DNA from: Bacteroidota bacterium
Lineage (GTDB): Bacteria > Bacteroidota > Bacteroidia > UKL13-3
Direction: 5' to 3'
Length of the DNA stretch: 59,892 bases
Assembly: GCA_947507965.1 (NCBI GenBank)
Contig: CANNQU010000011.1
Span: 1 to 59,892, forward strand
In this document: positions 21,116 to 27,621 of the stretch, piece by piece
How positions within the stretch are numbered: the stretch's first letter is position 1
Layout of the letters: the number at the start of each line of letters is the position of its first letter
The notes under the pieces: generated by a model
Database searches by the model: none
What the model was told of the DNA's origin: nothing
What the model saw: only the letters and a program-made list of their open reading frames with translations
Position numbers and translations under genes: made by a program

Positions 21116-22534
21116 CTAATAGAACTTTATTTTTCGGGCGGCAAACATACACATACGAAGCAGGATTAATCCGTGCTTGAACCTACTGATATTCGTGCTT
21201 CCATAGGTACGTTCTTTATAGCGGATGGGGATTTCAATAATCTTCAAATTAAGTTTGTAGGCTCCAAAAATAAGATCGAAATCGCCGAAAGGATCGAAGT
21301 CGCCAAAGAATTTGCGATTGGAAATTAACCGCTCATAATCTTCTCTAAAAATTACTTTCGTGCCACAAAGGGTATCCTTAAACGATTGAGATAAAAGCCA
21401 GGTAAAAGCCCAACTAAAAAATTTATTACCCAAAACATTTAAAAATCGCATCGCATTATTTTCCATTTGATATACCAATCGGGAGCCATTAATAAAATCG
21501 CCTTTCCCTAATGCGATGGCGTCGTAAAACTTAATTAAATCTTCCGGTGGCACCGTTAAATCGGCATCTAAGATCATTAATATATCGCCTGTGGCCATGG
21601 CAAAACCTTTCCTCACGGCATCGCCCTTTCCTTTTCCTTCCTGCCTTCCAATTTTTATGTTATGCGTGTTCTTATACTTTTCGGAAACCGCAACGATCGT
21701 TTCCCATGTATTATCGGTACTATTACCTTCAATAAAAATGAGCTCCACCCCTTTTCCCATTTCAGGCAGTTGTTTTACGGCGTTCTCAATATTACCGGCT
21801 TCGTTGCGTGCGGGCACCACCACACTCACGGTAAACTCCTTTTCCTCTTGTTTTAGATAACGTATGTTTTGTTTTGCAAAGAAAAAATGATTAATACAGA
21901 ACCAGTTAAATACAGGAAGCTGTGATAATATCCTATTAAAAAACCATGAAAGGATGGGGATGTTTACCGGTATTATTTGCCTGTTTGCCGTTTTATATAC
22001 GTCGAAGCCAGAAACATAGAGCAAATTTTCCAAATCGGCTTTGGTCAACCAATTTTGATCGGGTGTCTTTAGCTTTATTCCTATTCTCTCGGCAAACTTC
22101 AATGCCGGCTCCCATAAATAGTTATACGAGGTAATGATGACTTTGGTGTTTCTATGACAAACTTGATGCAGGTTGGTAAAGCATTTCTGAATATCATCGA
22201 GGTAGCCGGTGAGATTAGAAATAATGACGACATCAAATTTCTTATCCAATGAAAAATTTTCAGCATCCATCTCATGAAATTCGAGCGACGGAAAATTAGC
22301 TTTGGCATTCGCTATCATAGCAGAACTCATATCAATACCTACTTTTCTCATGCCATTTAATTCACTAAGCATCTCCCCATTGCCGCAACCTATTTCTATC
22401 ACGCTGTTTTCCGAATGAATAAAATAGTTGCAAAACCGGGTGATATCGTTCCAGTAGTAGGTGTTTCTCTTACGAATGAGCTTTCTTTTATCAGCTACGG
22501 AATTAAAATAGATAATACTTTTTTCTTTGTTCAT
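21116..22534 (-). CDS. fusion: class I SAM methyltransferase + family 2 glycosyltransferase
   Basis: A 472-residue two-domain enzyme. Residues ~1-210 are a Rossmann methyltransferase (VIEIGCGNGEMLSEL near 45-60, then VGIDMS and VVIISNLTGYL). Residues ~228-472 are a DPM1-like GT2 domain (VSVVVPARNEAGN, EGNSTDNTWE, metal-binding LDADLTVP near 319, GTKVIFRE). GT2 enzymes of this type move sugars to polyprenyl phosphate or other acceptors. The start overlaps the stop of the next methyltransferase gene (ATGA), so the two are coupled. I infer glycan or lipid modification; the substrate is unknown. The fusion itself is seen directly, with no frameshift. Confidence 0.85.
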   Translation of the reverse strand: MNKEKSIIYFNSVADKRKLIRKRNTYYWNDITRFCNYFIHSENSVIEIGCGNGEMLSELNGMRKVGIDMSSAMIANAKANFPSLEFHEMDAENFSLDKKFDVVIISNLTGYLDDIQKCFTNLHQVCHRNTKVIITSYNYLWEPALKFAERIGIKLKTPDQNWLTKADLENLLYVSGFDVYKTANRQIIPVNIPILSWFFNRILSQLPVFNWFCINHFFFAKQNIRYLKQEEKEFTVSVVVPARNEAGNIENAVKQLPEMGKGVELIFIEGNSTDNTWETIVAVSEKYKNTHNIKIGRQEGKGKGDAVRKGFAMATGDILMILDADLTVPPEDLIKFYDAIALGKGDFINGSRLVYQMENNAMRFLNVLGNKFFSWAFTWLLSQSFKDTLCGTKVIFREDYERLISNRKFFGDFDPFGDFDLIFGAYKLNLKIIEIPIRYKERTYGSTNISRFKHGLILLRMCMFAARKIKFY

Positions 22535-23295
22535 ACTTTTTCGATTACGATGGTTGCAAACATGGCAAACTCTTTACTTATTTTAAGCAAGATATTTTCA
22601 ATCCACTTAAAAAAATTAAAAGTGAAATCAGGCACCATCTGCTTTTTGGATACGCCACCACTTAGCAAATAACGCAGGGGTGTGTGATACCTTATCTCTT
22701 TTATTTTGAGGCTTGGAAATTCTCTTTCAAATTTATCCCGGTCGCGAATAAAAACGATATAAGGTAATGCCTGGTTCGAACCACTCATGGGTCCTGACTC
22801 GGGAATAAACCAGTCTCCATCCGTATTAAACGGTTCATGATGGAAGTTCTTGTAAATAAATTTCCCAAAAATCGTCTTTGCCGGCTCACTCATCACCATT
22901 CTACCTCCCGTCATTAAAACACGGTTGGCCTCCTTTAAAAATGCGGCGCTGTCGGGGATATGATGAAAAACATCGGTCATAAAGATTCCGGCAACGCTCT
23001 CGTTTTCAAAAGGCATATTTTGAGCATAAAAAATTTTATCTACTAAATCCGGTATTTGCAATATATCAGAGGTGATCACCTGGGGTAACGTTTCTTTTAA
23101 GAACCCACCACCTGATCCTAATTCTACGAGTGTTCCATGAGGCAGCTCGCCTGCTTGAAGCTTAAACACAGCATACCACTCCTCATACAGCTTTTTAAGG
23201 AAAGGCTTCGACAAAATCACCTCTCGATGCTGCAAGGTTCTTCGTGGATCATCGATGTCAAATGTTTCCTTATGTTTTAAATCTAAAATACCCAT
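22531..23295 (-). CDS. class I SAM-dependent methyltransferase
   Basis: About 254 residues from ATG 23295 (MGILDLKHKETFD); a longer TTG start at 23328 would run through the promoter and is unlikely. It carries LVELGSGGGFLKE (SAM site), SDILQIPD, and FMTDVFHHIPDSAAFLKEANRVL typical of the UbiE/Coq5-like group. It is coupled by a 4-nt overlap to the methyltransferase-GT2 fusion. The methyl acceptor is unknown; context suggests a glycolipid or polysaccharide precursor. Confidence 0.82.
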   Translation of the reverse strand: MGILDLKHKETFDIDDPRRTLQHREVILSKPFLKKLYEEWYAVFKLQAGELPHGTLVELGSGGGFLKETLPQVITSDILQIPDLVDKIFYAQNMPFENESVAGIFMTDVFHHIPDSAAFLKEANRVLMTGGRMVMSEPAKTIFGKFIYKNFHHEPFNTDGDWFIPESGPMSGSNQALPYIVFIRDRDKFEREFPSLKIKEIRYHTPLRYLLSGGVSKKQMVPDFTFNFFKWIENILLKISKEFAMFATIVIEKV

Positions 23296-23301
23296 GGCTG
23301 G

Positions 23302-23309
23302 CAAAAATA
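23302..23309 (-). promoter_or_regulatory. -7 box of the methyltransferase/GT operon (TATTTTTG)
   Basis: Exact TAnnTTTG on the minus strand, only 6 nt from ATG 23295, so the mRNA may be nearly leaderless. Back to back with the DUF2079 promoter. Confidence 0.55.
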
Positions 23310-23316
23310 GAAAATG

Positions 23317-23324
23317 TATTTTTG
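23317..23324 (+). promoter_or_regulatory. -7 box of the DUF2079 gene (TATTTTTG)
   Basis: Exact TAnnTTTG, 24 nt before ATG 23349 and 7 nt from the divergent -7 box, so the two promoters must compete or be co-regulated. Confidence 0.55.
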
Positions 23325-23348
23325 GCAAATAGATTTTTATTTGACAAA

Positions 23349-24863
23349 ATGAAATTTAAGTCCTCTACCATATTACTATTCGTATTGGCTGGCTTGCTCT
23401 TGGCCTTTTATTTTGTGGTGAATTGCCTTCATTTTCAAAGGAGCGACTATACTTCCGACATCTTCTCACTTTATCAATTGAGCCACGACTGGCTCCTTGG
23501 GAAACCGCTCTTTTATGAGAATAGTTTTGGGTTTCATAGTAAATTACATAATTATTTTATTACCCTCTTCATCGCACCATTCACCTATATTTTCGGCGTT
23601 TATGGAATATTTGTCGTTTTATTTAGCCTGGCCCTTGGTGCTCTGTATGCGGTTTTGAAAATGATGGATGCTATGGGAACATCGATCCATGCAAAATGGT
23701 TATTTGCCATTTTATATATCAGTCCCCTCACCTATTTTATATTCCATGACGAAAATTATGGATTCCACATAGAGCTACTTCTGATTCCTCTCGGGTTGCT
23801 TTTTATATCCGCCTTTCTTCAACATAAAAAATGGTATCTCGTGTGGGCACTCCTAATCCTATTGGTAAAAGAAGATGCCGTTGTATTTCTTTGTTGCTTA
23901 TGGATTACAAAATATAGTTCCGATTGGATAAAAAAAGATCTTACCGCCAAAGCTTTTCTCATCCAATCGATAGCCGCAGGGGCTATATGCTTATTGGTAT
24001 TTAGTGCCGGACTATTATGGCTTAAGTACATGAACCACTGGTCGGCCACACGTTCGGGTGACGTTTACTCAACCCTTAAGGAACAGCCCTTTAATGAGAT
24101 ACTAGCTTCATTTACCTACTTATTGCAAACCCGAATACAACTTACTTGTTTTGTTTTGGTTATCGTATATTTCTACGCCGGATGGCGATTTACTGTTGGT
24201 GCGATACTATTATCGACACCCATCTTAATACTGAATTTCCTGTCGGGGATTTTCTATATGGTTGATGGGGCGATCTTCATAAAAAACACGTTCTCCCTCC
24301 TATGGGCTCCTCGTTTAGGCTCCTATTGGGCTTATTGGTTGGGTGTTTTAGTCATTGCCTTAACCCATAAACCATCATGGTATTTCTATCCCTATTTTAT
24401 TCGAACGTTGGCTTGCCTTGTTTTTGGATTTTTGGTATTCCGACTTCAATATTTTTTTCTCAAATCTTGTGAAGTTACGAGGCTCGACATCACTAAAAAC
24501 ATGACCGAAGCCTTTGAACCGAATATTGAATTTGAATATAATACAGAGTTTAAAGATGCGGCAAGCATAGCCCAACAATTGCCCAACCATTACCCTGTAG
24601 CTCCAATGTATCGGGTATTTGGTGCATTCTACCAACAAGATATCGTTTGGCTTAATTCGTGGTGGAATGCCTATTACCCACCTCGAATGATTTTGGCAAG
24701 TTATAATAAAGATGAAATACCGGATGTGACAAAAGTGATGAAGCACCCGGTATATATGTTATACAAAGAAAAATTACATATTTACACGGAGGTGGATGAC
24801 ACCATTTTCATTGCCAGAGCAGGGATTCGAGGAGAGTGGAAGGAGCTGGAAATGAAACCGTAA
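23349..24863 (+). CDS. DUF2079 polytopic membrane protein
   Basis: A 504-residue protein with about ten membrane helices. The region after helix 1 (SDIFSLYQLSHDWLLGKPL, then the helix after LHNYFI) and the later FIFHDENYGFHIELLLIPLG and LLVKEDAVVF segments match DUF2079, a GT-C-like family of unknown activity. ATG 23349 begins right at the first helix. It is divergent from the methyltransferase/GT operon, which suggests a shared glycan or lipid-sugar pathway (inference). It ends in a soluble C-terminal domain of ~120 residues. Confidence 0.75.
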   Translation: MKFKSSTILLFVLAGLLLAFYFVVNCLHFQRSDYTSDIFSLYQLSHDWLLGKPLFYENSFGFHSKLHNYFITLFIAPFTYIFGVYGIFVVLFSLALGALYAVLKMMDAMGTSIHAKWLFAILYISPLTYFIFHDENYGFHIELLLIPLGLLFISAFLQHKKWYLVWALLILLVKEDAVVFLCCLWITKYSSDWIKKDLTAKAFLIQSIAAGAICLLVFSAGLLWLKYMNHWSATRSGDVYSTLKEQPFNEILASFTYLLQTRIQLTCFVLVIVYFYAGWRFTVGAILLSTPILILNFLSGIFYMVDGAIFIKNTFSLLWAPRLGSYWAYWLGVLVIALTHKPSWYFYPYFIRTLACLVFGFLVFRLQYFFLKSCEVTRLDITKNMTEAFEPNIEFEYNTEFKDAASIAQQLPNHYPVAPMYRVFGAFYQQDIVWLNSWWNAYYPPRMILASYNKDEIPDVTKVMKHPVYMLYKEKLHIYTEVDDTIFIARAGIRGEWKELEMKP

Positions 24864-24935: not shown

Positions 24936-26180
24936 CTAATCCTTCATTGCTTCGGCGGTTTGCCACATCTCCACGAAGGTATTGTATAAAGGCGTAGGCC
25001 CCATGCGTATGACGTTAGGTTCACGCCAGTCGGCCAGAATATTATTTTGTAAGAGCCGATCGAAGGCCGCTCTGCCATTTTCTTTGTACAGCAAACTTAG
25101 CTGACATCCACGTTCACGTATATTCTTCGGAGTGATTATTTCGAATTCCATTTTAGTGTTCCCCTCCTCTAATAAAAACTCAAGAAAGCCGGTTAGCTTC
25201 TCACTCTTGCTTCTTAGATTTTGCATTCCGGCTCTTTCAAAAATTTCCAAAGAGGCGTTATGTATGGCCATTGGAAAAACCTGAGCATTGCTTAATTGCC
25301 AGCCTTCAGCACTTGGTGTGGGTTTAAATCCTTTCAACATTTGAAAACGACTCCCTTCATCATGCCCCCACCACCCACCAAAACGAGGGATGGAAGTGTC
25401 TTTTGCGTTACGATCATGAATGAATACACCGGAGGTTCCACCGGGGCCGGAATTCAAGTATTTATAGCTACACCAGCAGGCAAAATCAACATCCCATTGG
25501 TGAAGTTGTAATACTAAATTCCCGGCAGCATGAGCCAAATCGAAGCCGGCATAAGCACCTATGCTATGGGCGGCGGCCGTGATCAATTTCATATCAAAAG
25601 CCTGTCCTGTAAAATAGTTTATGCCACCCATCATAACCAGTGCAACACGCTCACCATGTTCCAATATCGCAGCCATAATATCCTCGGTGCGCAAGGTATG
25701 CTCGCCCTCACGTGGATAAAGCTCCACAATACAATCATCAGGATTTAATCCATGATGCCGAACCTGAGTTTCCATGGCATACTGGTCGGAAGGAAAGGCT
25801 CTACCCTCCATAATGATTTTATACCGTGATGAGGTAGGGCGATAGAAAGAAACCATCAACAGATGTAAGTTAGTCGTCAGGTTATTCATCACCACTACTT
25901 CATGTGGCAATGCTCCAACAACAGAAGCCGTCTTCTCCGTTAGAAATTTATGATAATGAAACCATGGGTTTTTACCTTCAAAATGGGCTTCTACACCATA
26001 CTTTTGCCAGTCGGCAAACTCCTGCTCAACGGCGGCCCGTGCCGCTTTGGGCTGAAGCCCCAGGGAGTTACCACATAAATATATTTTATCTTCTAACAGA
26101 TGGAATTCATCTCTGAAATGGGCCAGGCTATCTTCAGCATCCAAACGCTGTGCGAACCCCAAACTATTTTGAAACAACAT
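24936..26180 (-). CDS. kynU: kynureninase
   Basis: A 414-residue PLP enzyme that cleaves kynurenine to anthranilate and alanine in tryptophan breakdown or NAD synthesis. Motifs: YLCGNSLGLQP near 30, GVEAHF and PWFHYH, GFDLAHAAGN, the PLP lysine in SYKYLNSGPGG near 238, and RFGGWWGHD. The ATG at 26180 fits the family N-terminus; a longer reading to 26261 overlaps the upstream gene and adds a hydrophobic leader not seen in kynureninases. No other kynurenine genes are near. Confidence 0.95.
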   Translation of the reverse strand: MLFQNSLGFAQRLDAEDSLAHFRDEFHLLEDKIYLCGNSLGLQPKAARAAVEQEFADWQKYGVEAHFEGKNPWFHYHKFLTEKTASVVGALPHEVVVMNNLTTNLHLLMVSFYRPTSSRYKIIMEGRAFPSDQYAMETQVRHHGLNPDDCIVELYPREGEHTLRTEDIMAAILEHGERVALVMMGGINYFTGQAFDMKLITAAAHSIGAYAGFDLAHAAGNLVLQLHQWDVDFACWCSYKYLNSGPGGTSGVFIHDRNAKDTSIPRFGGWWGHDEGSRFQMLKGFKPTPSAEGWQLSNAQVFPMAIHNASLEIFERAGMQNLRSKSEKLTGFLEFLLEEGNTKMEFEIITPKNIRERGCQLSLLYKENGRAAFDRLLQNNILADWREPNVIRMGPTPLYNTFVEMWQTAEAMKD

Positions 26181-26184
26181 AATG

Positions 26185-26192
26185 CGAAAGTA
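26185..26192 (-). promoter_or_regulatory. possible -7 box of kynU (TACTTTCG)
   Basis: A TTCG variant of TAnnTTTG, 4 nt before the kynU ATG on the minus strand, inside the end of the upstream gene's intergenic gap. Confidence 0.3.
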
Positions 26193-26221
26193 AGAAATTA
26201 AGCAGAAAAGCAATGAACCCA

Positions 26222-27535
26222 TTAAGCCTCTCGCTTCGTACCAAGAAAATAAGTGCTGCAAAAAAGAAGAACAGGATAAATCGCTACCTTATAACGAGCT
26301 GTTCCCATGGCCATCGACGATATTCCCGCAATATAAAGAAGTAGGATTAAGGCGCTAATTTTTAACGGGAGCGGTATTCGTTTAGAGAAAACAAAAAAAC
26401 ATAAGCCAAGAAGCACGAAGAGATTCCATAAGACAACGAGCACATTTAATAGAAACAGAGAGAGCGGCTGCGAGGTAAAGTAATTTTTAACGCCCTTCCA
26501 TCCATTAACGTTAAGCTCTTTAATAAAGCTTTTAGGTTGTGCCTCATCTTGATCGAGATAAGAGTTGACAAACTCACGGCCAGGTGCCACAAAAAAATTG
26601 AGTACCCCCTGGGAATGGTACCAGGTATAGCTGACGATGTTTTGCATAAGTACATGCGTGCAGGCACTGTCAAGAAATTGATATTGATGTTCAAAATCGG
26701 GTTGCAGCTTGCTTTGCAGCCAGATTTCTTTTTTATAGGTATAGCCACTATCATGGCCATACTTCAGGTTTAAAAAATTGGTGGTGTTATACGTCCATAG
26801 GTTTTCCACCTTGCTGGAACTAAAATGATAATATCCGGTTACCCTTTTATTAATTACACTTACCATGATAATAAACAGTGGCAATATAAAAGAACAGGCA
26901 ATAACAGTCCAGCTTCTCTTCAATTTAAAATAGACATACCATGCAAAAAGAATATTAAAATACGCATAATACACAAAGGCCGGCTTGGTGAAAAGTGCGA
27001 ATACAATATACATGGTATAGTATAAAAAATAGTTGCTTTTTTTAAAGTAGATAAAATTCAGTAAGCTAAAAAATGATAAGGAAATGAAAAACTGAAAGAG
27101 AATATCACTAAAAACACTATTGCATAGAACGAGCTGTATAGGATTTAACAATAAGGCAAGCACTAAATAAAGATGCAACCTCGATTCGTTTACGGCAGGA
27201 ACAAATTGCAGAACAAAATGTCGAAGCTTAACCCAAATAAAAATGCTCAATACGGATTGCACGAACAATAAAACATAAACATTCGACGATACCTCGGCTG
27301 TAACTAATACCAATAGGCCATACATAGGAGGCCGGAGCGAATAGAAGGAAAAATTATGTGGCCAAACATCCCAGTTGGCAGCATAAAAGCTGCCATGATA
27401 AACCATGTTATGAGCTTGGGCTAGGTACTCAACACTATCTTGGTTCATATAGGTTTTTAACACGATACTCCCAATGAAGTAAAGCGCATGAATACTTACG
27501 ACAAGAATTAAAAATACTTTTTTAGACCACTGCAT
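26222..27535 (-). CDS. polytopic membrane protein, GT-C (ArnT/PMT-like) type
   Basis: A 437-residue protein from ATG 27535 (a TTG at 27547 is possible). About ten membrane helices. The first periplasmic loop has YMNQDSVEYLAQAHNM, where an Asp pair-like motif is typical of GT-C glycosyltransferases that use lipid-linked sugars. A later RPPMYGLL also fits. Similarity is too low to name a family. It sits 41 nt upstream of kynU on the same strand but is not functionally linked to it. Confidence 0.6.
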   Translation of the reverse strand: MQWSKKVFLILVVSIHALYFIGSIVLKTYMNQDSVEYLAQAHNMVYHGSFYAANWDVWPHNFSFYSLRPPMYGLLVLVTAEVSSNVYVLLFVQSVLSIFIWVKLRHFVLQFVPAVNESRLHLYLVLALLLNPIQLVLCNSVFSDILFQFFISLSFFSLLNFIYFKKSNYFLYYTMYIVFALFTKPAFVYYAYFNILFAWYVYFKLKRSWTVIACSFILPLFIIMVSVINKRVTGYYHFSSSKVENLWTYNTTNFLNLKYGHDSGYTYKKEIWLQSKLQPDFEHQYQFLDSACTHVLMQNIVSYTWYHSQGVLNFFVAPGREFVNSYLDQDEAQPKSFIKELNVNGWKGVKNYFTSQPLSLFLLNVLVVLWNLFVLLGLCFFVFSKRIPLPLKISALILLLYIAGISSMAMGTARYKVAIYPVLLFCSTYFLGTKREA

Positions 27536-27621
27536 GGAGAGCGTCAAAAATACATATTATTGTGAATGGAAGAGAAATGAAAATCTAGTGTAAAAAAAGT
27601 CCGAATTCTTTTTTCTTTCCT

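Follow-up and report, generated by a model that had tools for sequence, protein, structure and literature searches.

A methyltransferase–glycosyltransferase fusion in a divergent Bacteroidota locus: a possible route to a methylated, lipid-linked sugar

Could a divergent locus that encodes two methyltransferases, one of them fused to a glycosyltransferase, and a membrane protein make a methylated sugar on a lipid carrier and transfer it? The question is raised by a stretch of 59,892 nucleotides (the window), which is contig CANNQU010000011.1 of a Bacteroidota bacterium (GCA_947507965.1; Bacteroidia, UKL13-3), one contig of a genome of 3.36 Mb in 147 contigs. The first-pass annotation described four activities here: a methyltransferase fused to a DPM1-like transferase, a second methyltransferase (MT2) and, divergent from both, a membrane protein. 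The coordinates of these reading frames hold, with two starts corrected. The genes are real and under selection, and the unit is ordinary in its parts and unusual in their combination. By analogy, the parts and known pathways fit a methylated sugar that is made on a lipid carrier and then transferred.

The fusion protein and its methyltransferase partner

The fusion protein (472 aa, 21116..22534, minus strand) consists of a class I S-adenosylmethionine (SAM) methyltransferase domain (about residues 1-185), a linker and a family 2 glycosyltransferase (GT2) domain (about residues 233-472), as supported by Pfam, PDB sequence matches, AlphaFold2 and Foldseek. Pfam detects Methyltransf_31 at residues 39-138 (E 4.6e-16) and Glycos_transf_2 at residues 237-365 (E 1.4e-24). 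In the PDB sequence search, the N-terminal half matches methyltransferase-like proteins and the GT2 half is closest to dolichol monophosphate mannose (DPM) synthase 5mlz (E 3.7e-15) and ArnC 9hwj (E 7.3e-12), with several structures of glucosyl-3-phosphoglycerate synthase (GpgS) also among the matches, the best being 4y6n (E 3.5e-7). An AlphaFold2 model built from 8 sequences has a mean predicted local distance difference test score (pLDDT) of 79, residues 443-458 and 463-472 lying below 50. With this model, Foldseek retrieves ArnC 9bhc (E 1.3e-12, target-normalised TM-score 0.57), DPM synthase 5mlz (E 1.1e-11, 0.48) and methyltransferase 3l8d (E 3.9e-12, 0.71). Residues G49, G51 and G53 as well as D323-A324-D325 are invariant in all eight aligned fusion proteins, and the SAM and DxD motifs are intact. 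Judging by sequence, DxD motif and predicted fold, the GT2 domain is of the DPM1/ArnC type of polyprenyl-phosphate sugar synthases, in line with the DPM1-like label it was first given. The highest NCBIfam score of this part is for AglJ (TIGR04182; 106.7 bits, curated cut-off 325), followed by GpgS (59.3 bits, cut-off 262), ArnC (43.7 bits) and, weakly, the hopene-associated HpnB (27.5 bits). Since the scores for AglJ and GpgS are both far below their cut-offs, the fusion was assigned to neither family.

The fusion is present in all five genomes of the genus. At E<=1e-60, it was found in 8 of 64 family genomes (the five genus members included) and in 8 of 395 genomes drawn evenly from the phylum, one of the eight being the window's own, with no more than four candidates scored per genome. 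A further search returned ten loci, namely four genus contigs again, three weak partial matches that were dropped and three new loci (L028, L029 and L030), the last in a metagenome-assembled genome (MAG) labelled Ignavibacteria. This gives 18 distinct fusion loci: five from the genus, three others from the family, seven others from the phylum sample and three from the further search. The nearest named relatives are MAGs labelled Bacteroidetes, with a fusion identity of 79-84%. The frame is uninterrupted in 16 of the 18 loci; the breaks in the remaining two (L048, 9009-10297, genome G019; L055, 9315-10596, genome G204) reflect sequencing error or decay. Among plasmids, 191 records match the fusion, and in 17 of them a match spans 80% or more of the query. 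Those listed (15) are all from Azospirillum, have the same domain order and cover 98-100% of the query at 44.9-46.5% identity. NCBI annotates these plasmid proteins as 'bifunctional class I SAM-dependent methyltransferase/glycosyltransferase family 2 protein'; therefore, the architecture is already known to annotation, and the window protein, a class I SAM methyltransferase followed by GT2 in one uninterrupted chain, is similar to the NCBI-named members over its full length. Recurrence in the genus, in other families, in the Ignavibacteria-labelled MAG and in Azospirillum rules out an assembly error, which had been named among the findings that would undo the original proposal.

MT2 (254 aa, 22531..23295, minus strand) is a second class I SAM methyltransferase, recognised by Pfam as Methyltransf_11 (E 1e-8). 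Its start is more likely the ATG at 23295, used in all five genus members, than the TTG at 23328 given in the list of open reading frames (ORFs). The MT2 and fusion ORFs share 4 nt in the window and three of its relatives (L025, L026 and L031); in the fourth, L027, the fusion may start at a GTG (4-nt overlap with MT2) or one codon later, at an ATG (1 nt).

Homologues of MT2 (E<=1e-5) lie in the available DNA of 11 of the 18 fusion loci. They are directly beside the fusion in nine (the five genus loci, L030, L049, L051 and L055) and two genes away in L048, and a weak partial match is found near the fusion in L054. Because MT2 precedes the fusion in the genus and L049 and follows it in L030, L051 and L055, the adjacency of the two genes has outlived rearrangement. 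At E<=1e-12, MT2 occurs in four of the 395 phylum-sample genomes, all among the eight with the fusion and each time directly beside it; the fusion and MT2 draws contain the same genomes among the rows listed. With the window genome left out and kinship ignored, the chance that all three remaining MT2 genomes are fusion carriers is about 3.5e-6. MT2 thus looks like a dedicated partner of the fusion.

The divergent membrane protein and the conservation of the locus

The third gene (23349..24863, plus strand) encodes a 504-aa membrane protein, hydrophobic by eye, that likely starts at the ATG at 23349. Orthologue starts in four genus loci match those in the window, with GTG as the start codon of the membrane protein in two. 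The protein was initially labelled DUF2079. It has no Pfam match at E<=10, and the DUF2079 model (PF09852) matches nothing in the source genome, so that plain membership of the Pfam family was rejected. What stands is a more distant relation. Three proteins over the DUF2079 cut-off, retrieved from 198 phylum genomes, were aligned as a reference. In hhalign, an alignment of seven members of the window family matched this reference over residues 23-193 with Prob 92.2 and E 5.9e-7, compared to Prob 0.16-0.78 for four other membrane families; these alignments are shallow, with 2 to 7 sequences each. A single BLASTP comparison to one DUF2079 member gave E 0.002, and the C-terminal half does not align with DUF2079. 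D37, a candidate for the acidic residue that a GT-C enzyme would have in its first outside loop, is invariant in all seven aligned proteins. The profile comparison supports a distant DUF2079 homologue that the Pfam model misses, and a GT-C-like character may be supposed. A PDB sequence search with the seven-member profile returned no match at E<=10.

In the genus, the gene order is PhoH-PurC-NHL-rnpA-fusion-MT2<>membrane protein-kynureninase, kept as far as the contigs extend. The three genes adjoin in all five genomes, as the proposal of one locus had implied. Beyond the genus, this conservation is partial: the fusion lies directly beside MT2 at four loci and is divergent from the membrane protein at one, and no locus with all three genes was found. 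The membrane protein was detected (E<=1e-5) in three of the 395 phylum genomes, namely the window genome, G434 and G312. In G434 (locus L050), which belongs to another family, a homologue with 23-27% identity is divergent from a fusion gene without MT2.

On the far side of the membrane-protein gene, the kynureninase ORF (24936-26261, minus strand) overlaps its ORF by 40 nt. The true kynureninase start is probably further inside, because matches in relatives begin at residue 16-24.

The shared divergent promoter region

Between the starts of MT2 and the membrane protein lies a shared divergent promoter region of 53 nt (23296..23348) with a core, 23302-23324, that is kept across the genus. The back-to-back -7 boxes reported earlier are indeed there, facing away from each other with 7 nt between them: CAAAAATA at 23302-23309, which reads TATTTTTG on the minus strand, for the MT2-fusion operon, and TATTTTTG at 23317-23324 on the plus strand for the membrane-protein gene. 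Both have the form TAnnTTTG of the conserved -7 box of the Bacteroidota housekeeping promoter. Among 90 single boxes in the window, this is the only back-to-back pair with a gap of at most 30 nt, and a first-order Markov model fitted to the 53-nt spacer itself produced such a pair in 0.19% of 100,000 trials. The window, L025, L026 and L031 share an identical 23-nt core; that of L027 has a single difference, in the right arm, TAATTTTGTAA, which still fits TAnnTTTG. Over the whole spacer, identity to the window is 0.87 (L025), 0.89 (L026), 0.70 (L027) and 0.94 (L031), compared to 0.65-0.73 for the first 150 codons of the two flanking genes; the spacer of L027 therefore stands out in its core alone. 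At the fourfold sites of MT2, 49 of 154 agree. As judged from these comparisons, the promoter core is under strong selection. In L050, a TATTTTTG box precedes the fusion and TACATTTG precedes the membrane protein, 55 nt apart.

In passages of PMC6847099 on Flavobacterium johnsoniae, the G of the -7 box sits at -5 and the -33 motif is described as weak. Applying this box-to-start rule, transcription is predicted to start near 23297 (minus strand) and 23329 (plus strand). The former position lies 2 nt before the MT2 ATG at 23295, and the latter would leave a leader of about 20 nt for the membrane protein. As the MT2 ATG is exactly 6 nt from the -7 box in all five genus members, a leaderless MT2 message is predicted; part of a study on Flavobacterium psychrophilum puts leaderless mRNAs at 5.5% of those examined (PMC9723704). 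With the boxes so close, two polymerases would cover the same DNA, one excluding the other, and the two transcripts would be expected to alternate.

Two findings argue against two simple promoters. A -33 TTTG, usually spaced about 19-21 nt from the -7 box, is absent on the plus strand, and the one on the minus strand has a 16-nt spacer. Moreover, the 7 nt between the boxes are identical in all five genomes, which two -7 boxes alone do not account for. This identity, together with an 11-nt inverted repeat (91% complementary) that spans both boxes, would suit a palindromic operator of a regulator, either instead of the promoters or overlaid on them. The change in the right arm of L027 weakens the dyad yet retains TAnnTTTG, although this is one sequence, and we consider the operator rather improbable.

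Possible function, alternatives and flanking genes

The proposed function is polyprenyl-phosphate sugar synthesis coupled to methylation, after which the membrane protein would use the sugar. The GT2 domain would, by homology, take a sugar from a nucleotide donor and attach it to polyprenyl phosphate on the cytoplasmic side of the membrane, and the fused methyltransferase domain would O-methylate the same sugar before or just after loading. MT2 could add a second methyl group or act at a neighbouring position. A flippase would then turn the lipid-linked sugar over, and the DUF2079/GT-C-like membrane protein would transfer it to an extracytoplasmic acceptor. Each of these elements (donor, carrier, acceptor and activity) is inferred, and we regard this pathway as plausible, with the case for it and the case against it about evenly balanced.

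Known systems offer partial precedents. In the ArnC/ArnT pathway of lipid A modification, ArnC is a carrier-loading GT2 enzyme with the fold predicted for the window GT2, the sugar is modified on the carrier, and the GT-C enzyme ArnT uses the product. There, a separate enzyme modifies the sugar by removing a formyl group, whereas in the window a methyltransferase is fused to GT2 and the membrane protein resembles DUF2079. In the Agl pathway of Haloferax volcanii (AglJ, AglP, AglD, AglS), according to passages of PMC3827465, a SAM methyltransferase acts on a glycan linked to dolichol phosphate (DolP), and a separate DolP-mannose is used later. Like the proposed pathway, it has DolP-loading enzymes, a SAM methyltransferase acting on a lipid-linked glycan and later transfer from DolP-mannose. 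Unlike in the window, the proteins are separate and a hexuronic acid in an N-glycan is methylated, and the AglJ profile is far below its cut-off in the window protein. The Azospirillum regions share the bifunctional protein and differ in their surroundings: at E<=1e-3, no homologue of MT2 or of the membrane protein was found in the three regions, and in two the fusion is immediately preceded by a flippase-like (LPG synthase TM) gene (L068, 7841-8887; L069, 5841-6878).

At other fusion loci, ten neighbour proteins were scanned with Pfam. The L069 region contains GDP-mannose dehydratase and dTDP-rhamnose genes. An LPG_synthase_TM protein in L055 passes the flippase-like profile TIGR00374 (46.4 bits, cut-off 43.2) and has an 87% identical counterpart in L052; the L068 protein, at 30.5 bits, is under that cut-off. 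In a pathway of the kind proposed, the LPG synthase TM gene upstream of the fusion in Azospirillum could supply the flippase. A neighbour in L049 matches PMT_2 with 25.6 bits, just under the cut-off of 26.1, and clusters with one in L054. L048, L052 and L055 have in common a family of about 620 aa, whose L052 member matches PMT_2 very weakly (E 0.009). Membrane neighbours of L030, L050 and L053 have no Pfam match and that of L051 has no GT-C-type match; in L028, L046 and L047, no large membrane protein is evident beside the fusion in the gene list, from which the proteins were not scanned. Taken together, these neighbours suggest a chemistry of lipid-linked sugars rather than a single fixed operon.

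Several findings weigh against the proposed pathway. The second-best NCBIfam profile of the GT2 part is GpgS, a GT2 enzyme with a soluble acceptor. The AlphaFold2 model of the membrane protein, built from five sequences, is poor (pLDDT 51.8), and a PDB fold search with it gave nothing at E<=0.001, mostly receptors being returned with a best E of 0.22. Gene content speaks against a strict link: G312 has the membrane protein with no fusion within the surrounding 19.9 kb, and, some contigs being short, no homologue of the membrane protein was found in the available DNA around the fusion in 12 of 18 loci and none of MT2 in seven (L028, L029, L046, L047, L050, L052 and L053). No nucleotide-sugar enzyme or flippase was recognised among the seven window proteins scanned with Pfam. 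The source genome has two LPG_synthase_TM matches on other contigs; this family is also present in 11 of 14 control genomes.

The 12 loci without it and the case of G312 bear on the membrane protein, which might be outside the pathway, a neighbour sharing the promoter region by accident. The divergent arrangement is kept in all five genus genomes and again in L050, with its distant homologue and no MT2, and the promoter core is under strong selection; we therefore consider an accidental neighbour unlikely, albeit the most serious of the competing explanations. Somewhat less likely still is a methyltransferase domain that acts late and caps the growing end of a glycan, the fusion merely keeping both enzymes on one assembly complex. 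Methylation caps the glycan end in WbdD-like logic, and some fusion genes are surrounded by further genes for glycosyltransferases and FkbM-type methyltransferases (L052 by Pfam, L067-L069 by annotation). The fused GT2, on the other hand, is of the carrier-loading type, and in the seven window proteins scanned a single glycosyltransferase domain was recognised and neither a polymerase nor an exporter, a 441-aa membrane protein (described below) being unassigned.

Two further explanations concern the acceptor of GT2. It could glycosylate a lipid (hopanoid, carotenoid or diacylglycerol), yielding a methylated glycolipid instead of a polyprenyl-phosphate donor, in keeping with a lycopene-cyclase-domain gene directly after the fusion in L029 and with the weak HpnB match. 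This domain occurs in one of the ten neighbour proteins scanned, AglJ and ArnC both outscore HpnB, and DPM synthase and ArnC lead the PDB matches, which makes a glycolipid quite improbable. Least probable of all is a small soluble acceptor as in GpgS, with the methyltransferases methylating a soluble (oligo)saccharide. Mycobacterial methylglucose polysaccharide is a precedent for such a product, and GpgS appears among both the profile and the PDB matches; however, GpgS is outscored by DPM synthase and AglJ, and the hydrophobic DUF2079-like protein next to the unit keeps its divergent arrangement.

Returning to carrier-bound synthesis with methylation, a glycosyltransferase of carrier-loading type fused to a methyltransferase, with an MT2 that was found only with the fusion (E<=1e-12, 395 genomes), is a candidate for methylation at the monosaccharide stage. 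Because the fusion is rare in that sample (8 of 395 genomes), this would be an accessory route, not general machinery. A stricter version, which we regard as doubtful, is that methylation on the carrier commits the sugar: the fusion would load and methylate at once, and the GT-C-like partner would take only the methylated donor. According to part of a 2025 review (PMC12871550), O-glycans of Bacteroidota commonly carry methyl groups, the timing of whose addition is unknown. If true, the window would offer one answer to whether these groups come before or after glycan assembly, and, with one promoter region serving both directions, the cell could switch between producing the donor and producing the transferase; none of the analyses made ties the unit to O-glycans. 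In a limited literature search, no study of such a methyltransferase-GT2 fusion was found by title, which does not show that the fusion is unpublished, nor was a paper with 'DUF2079'. In the relevant passages of PMC10434189, the two names looked for together refer to separate genes. A further search gave titles on fungal biotransformation and natural products and none on bacterial surface glycans.

Adjoining kynureninase, the minus-strand gene at 26222-27547 encodes the 441-aa membrane protein mentioned above, which has no Pfam match. As a GT-C enzyme it was rejected, with Prob 1.7 against a pair of PMT_2-like proteins. It is 56-60% identical in two genus members, and in G002 (L043) there is no space for it between kynureninase and the next gene.

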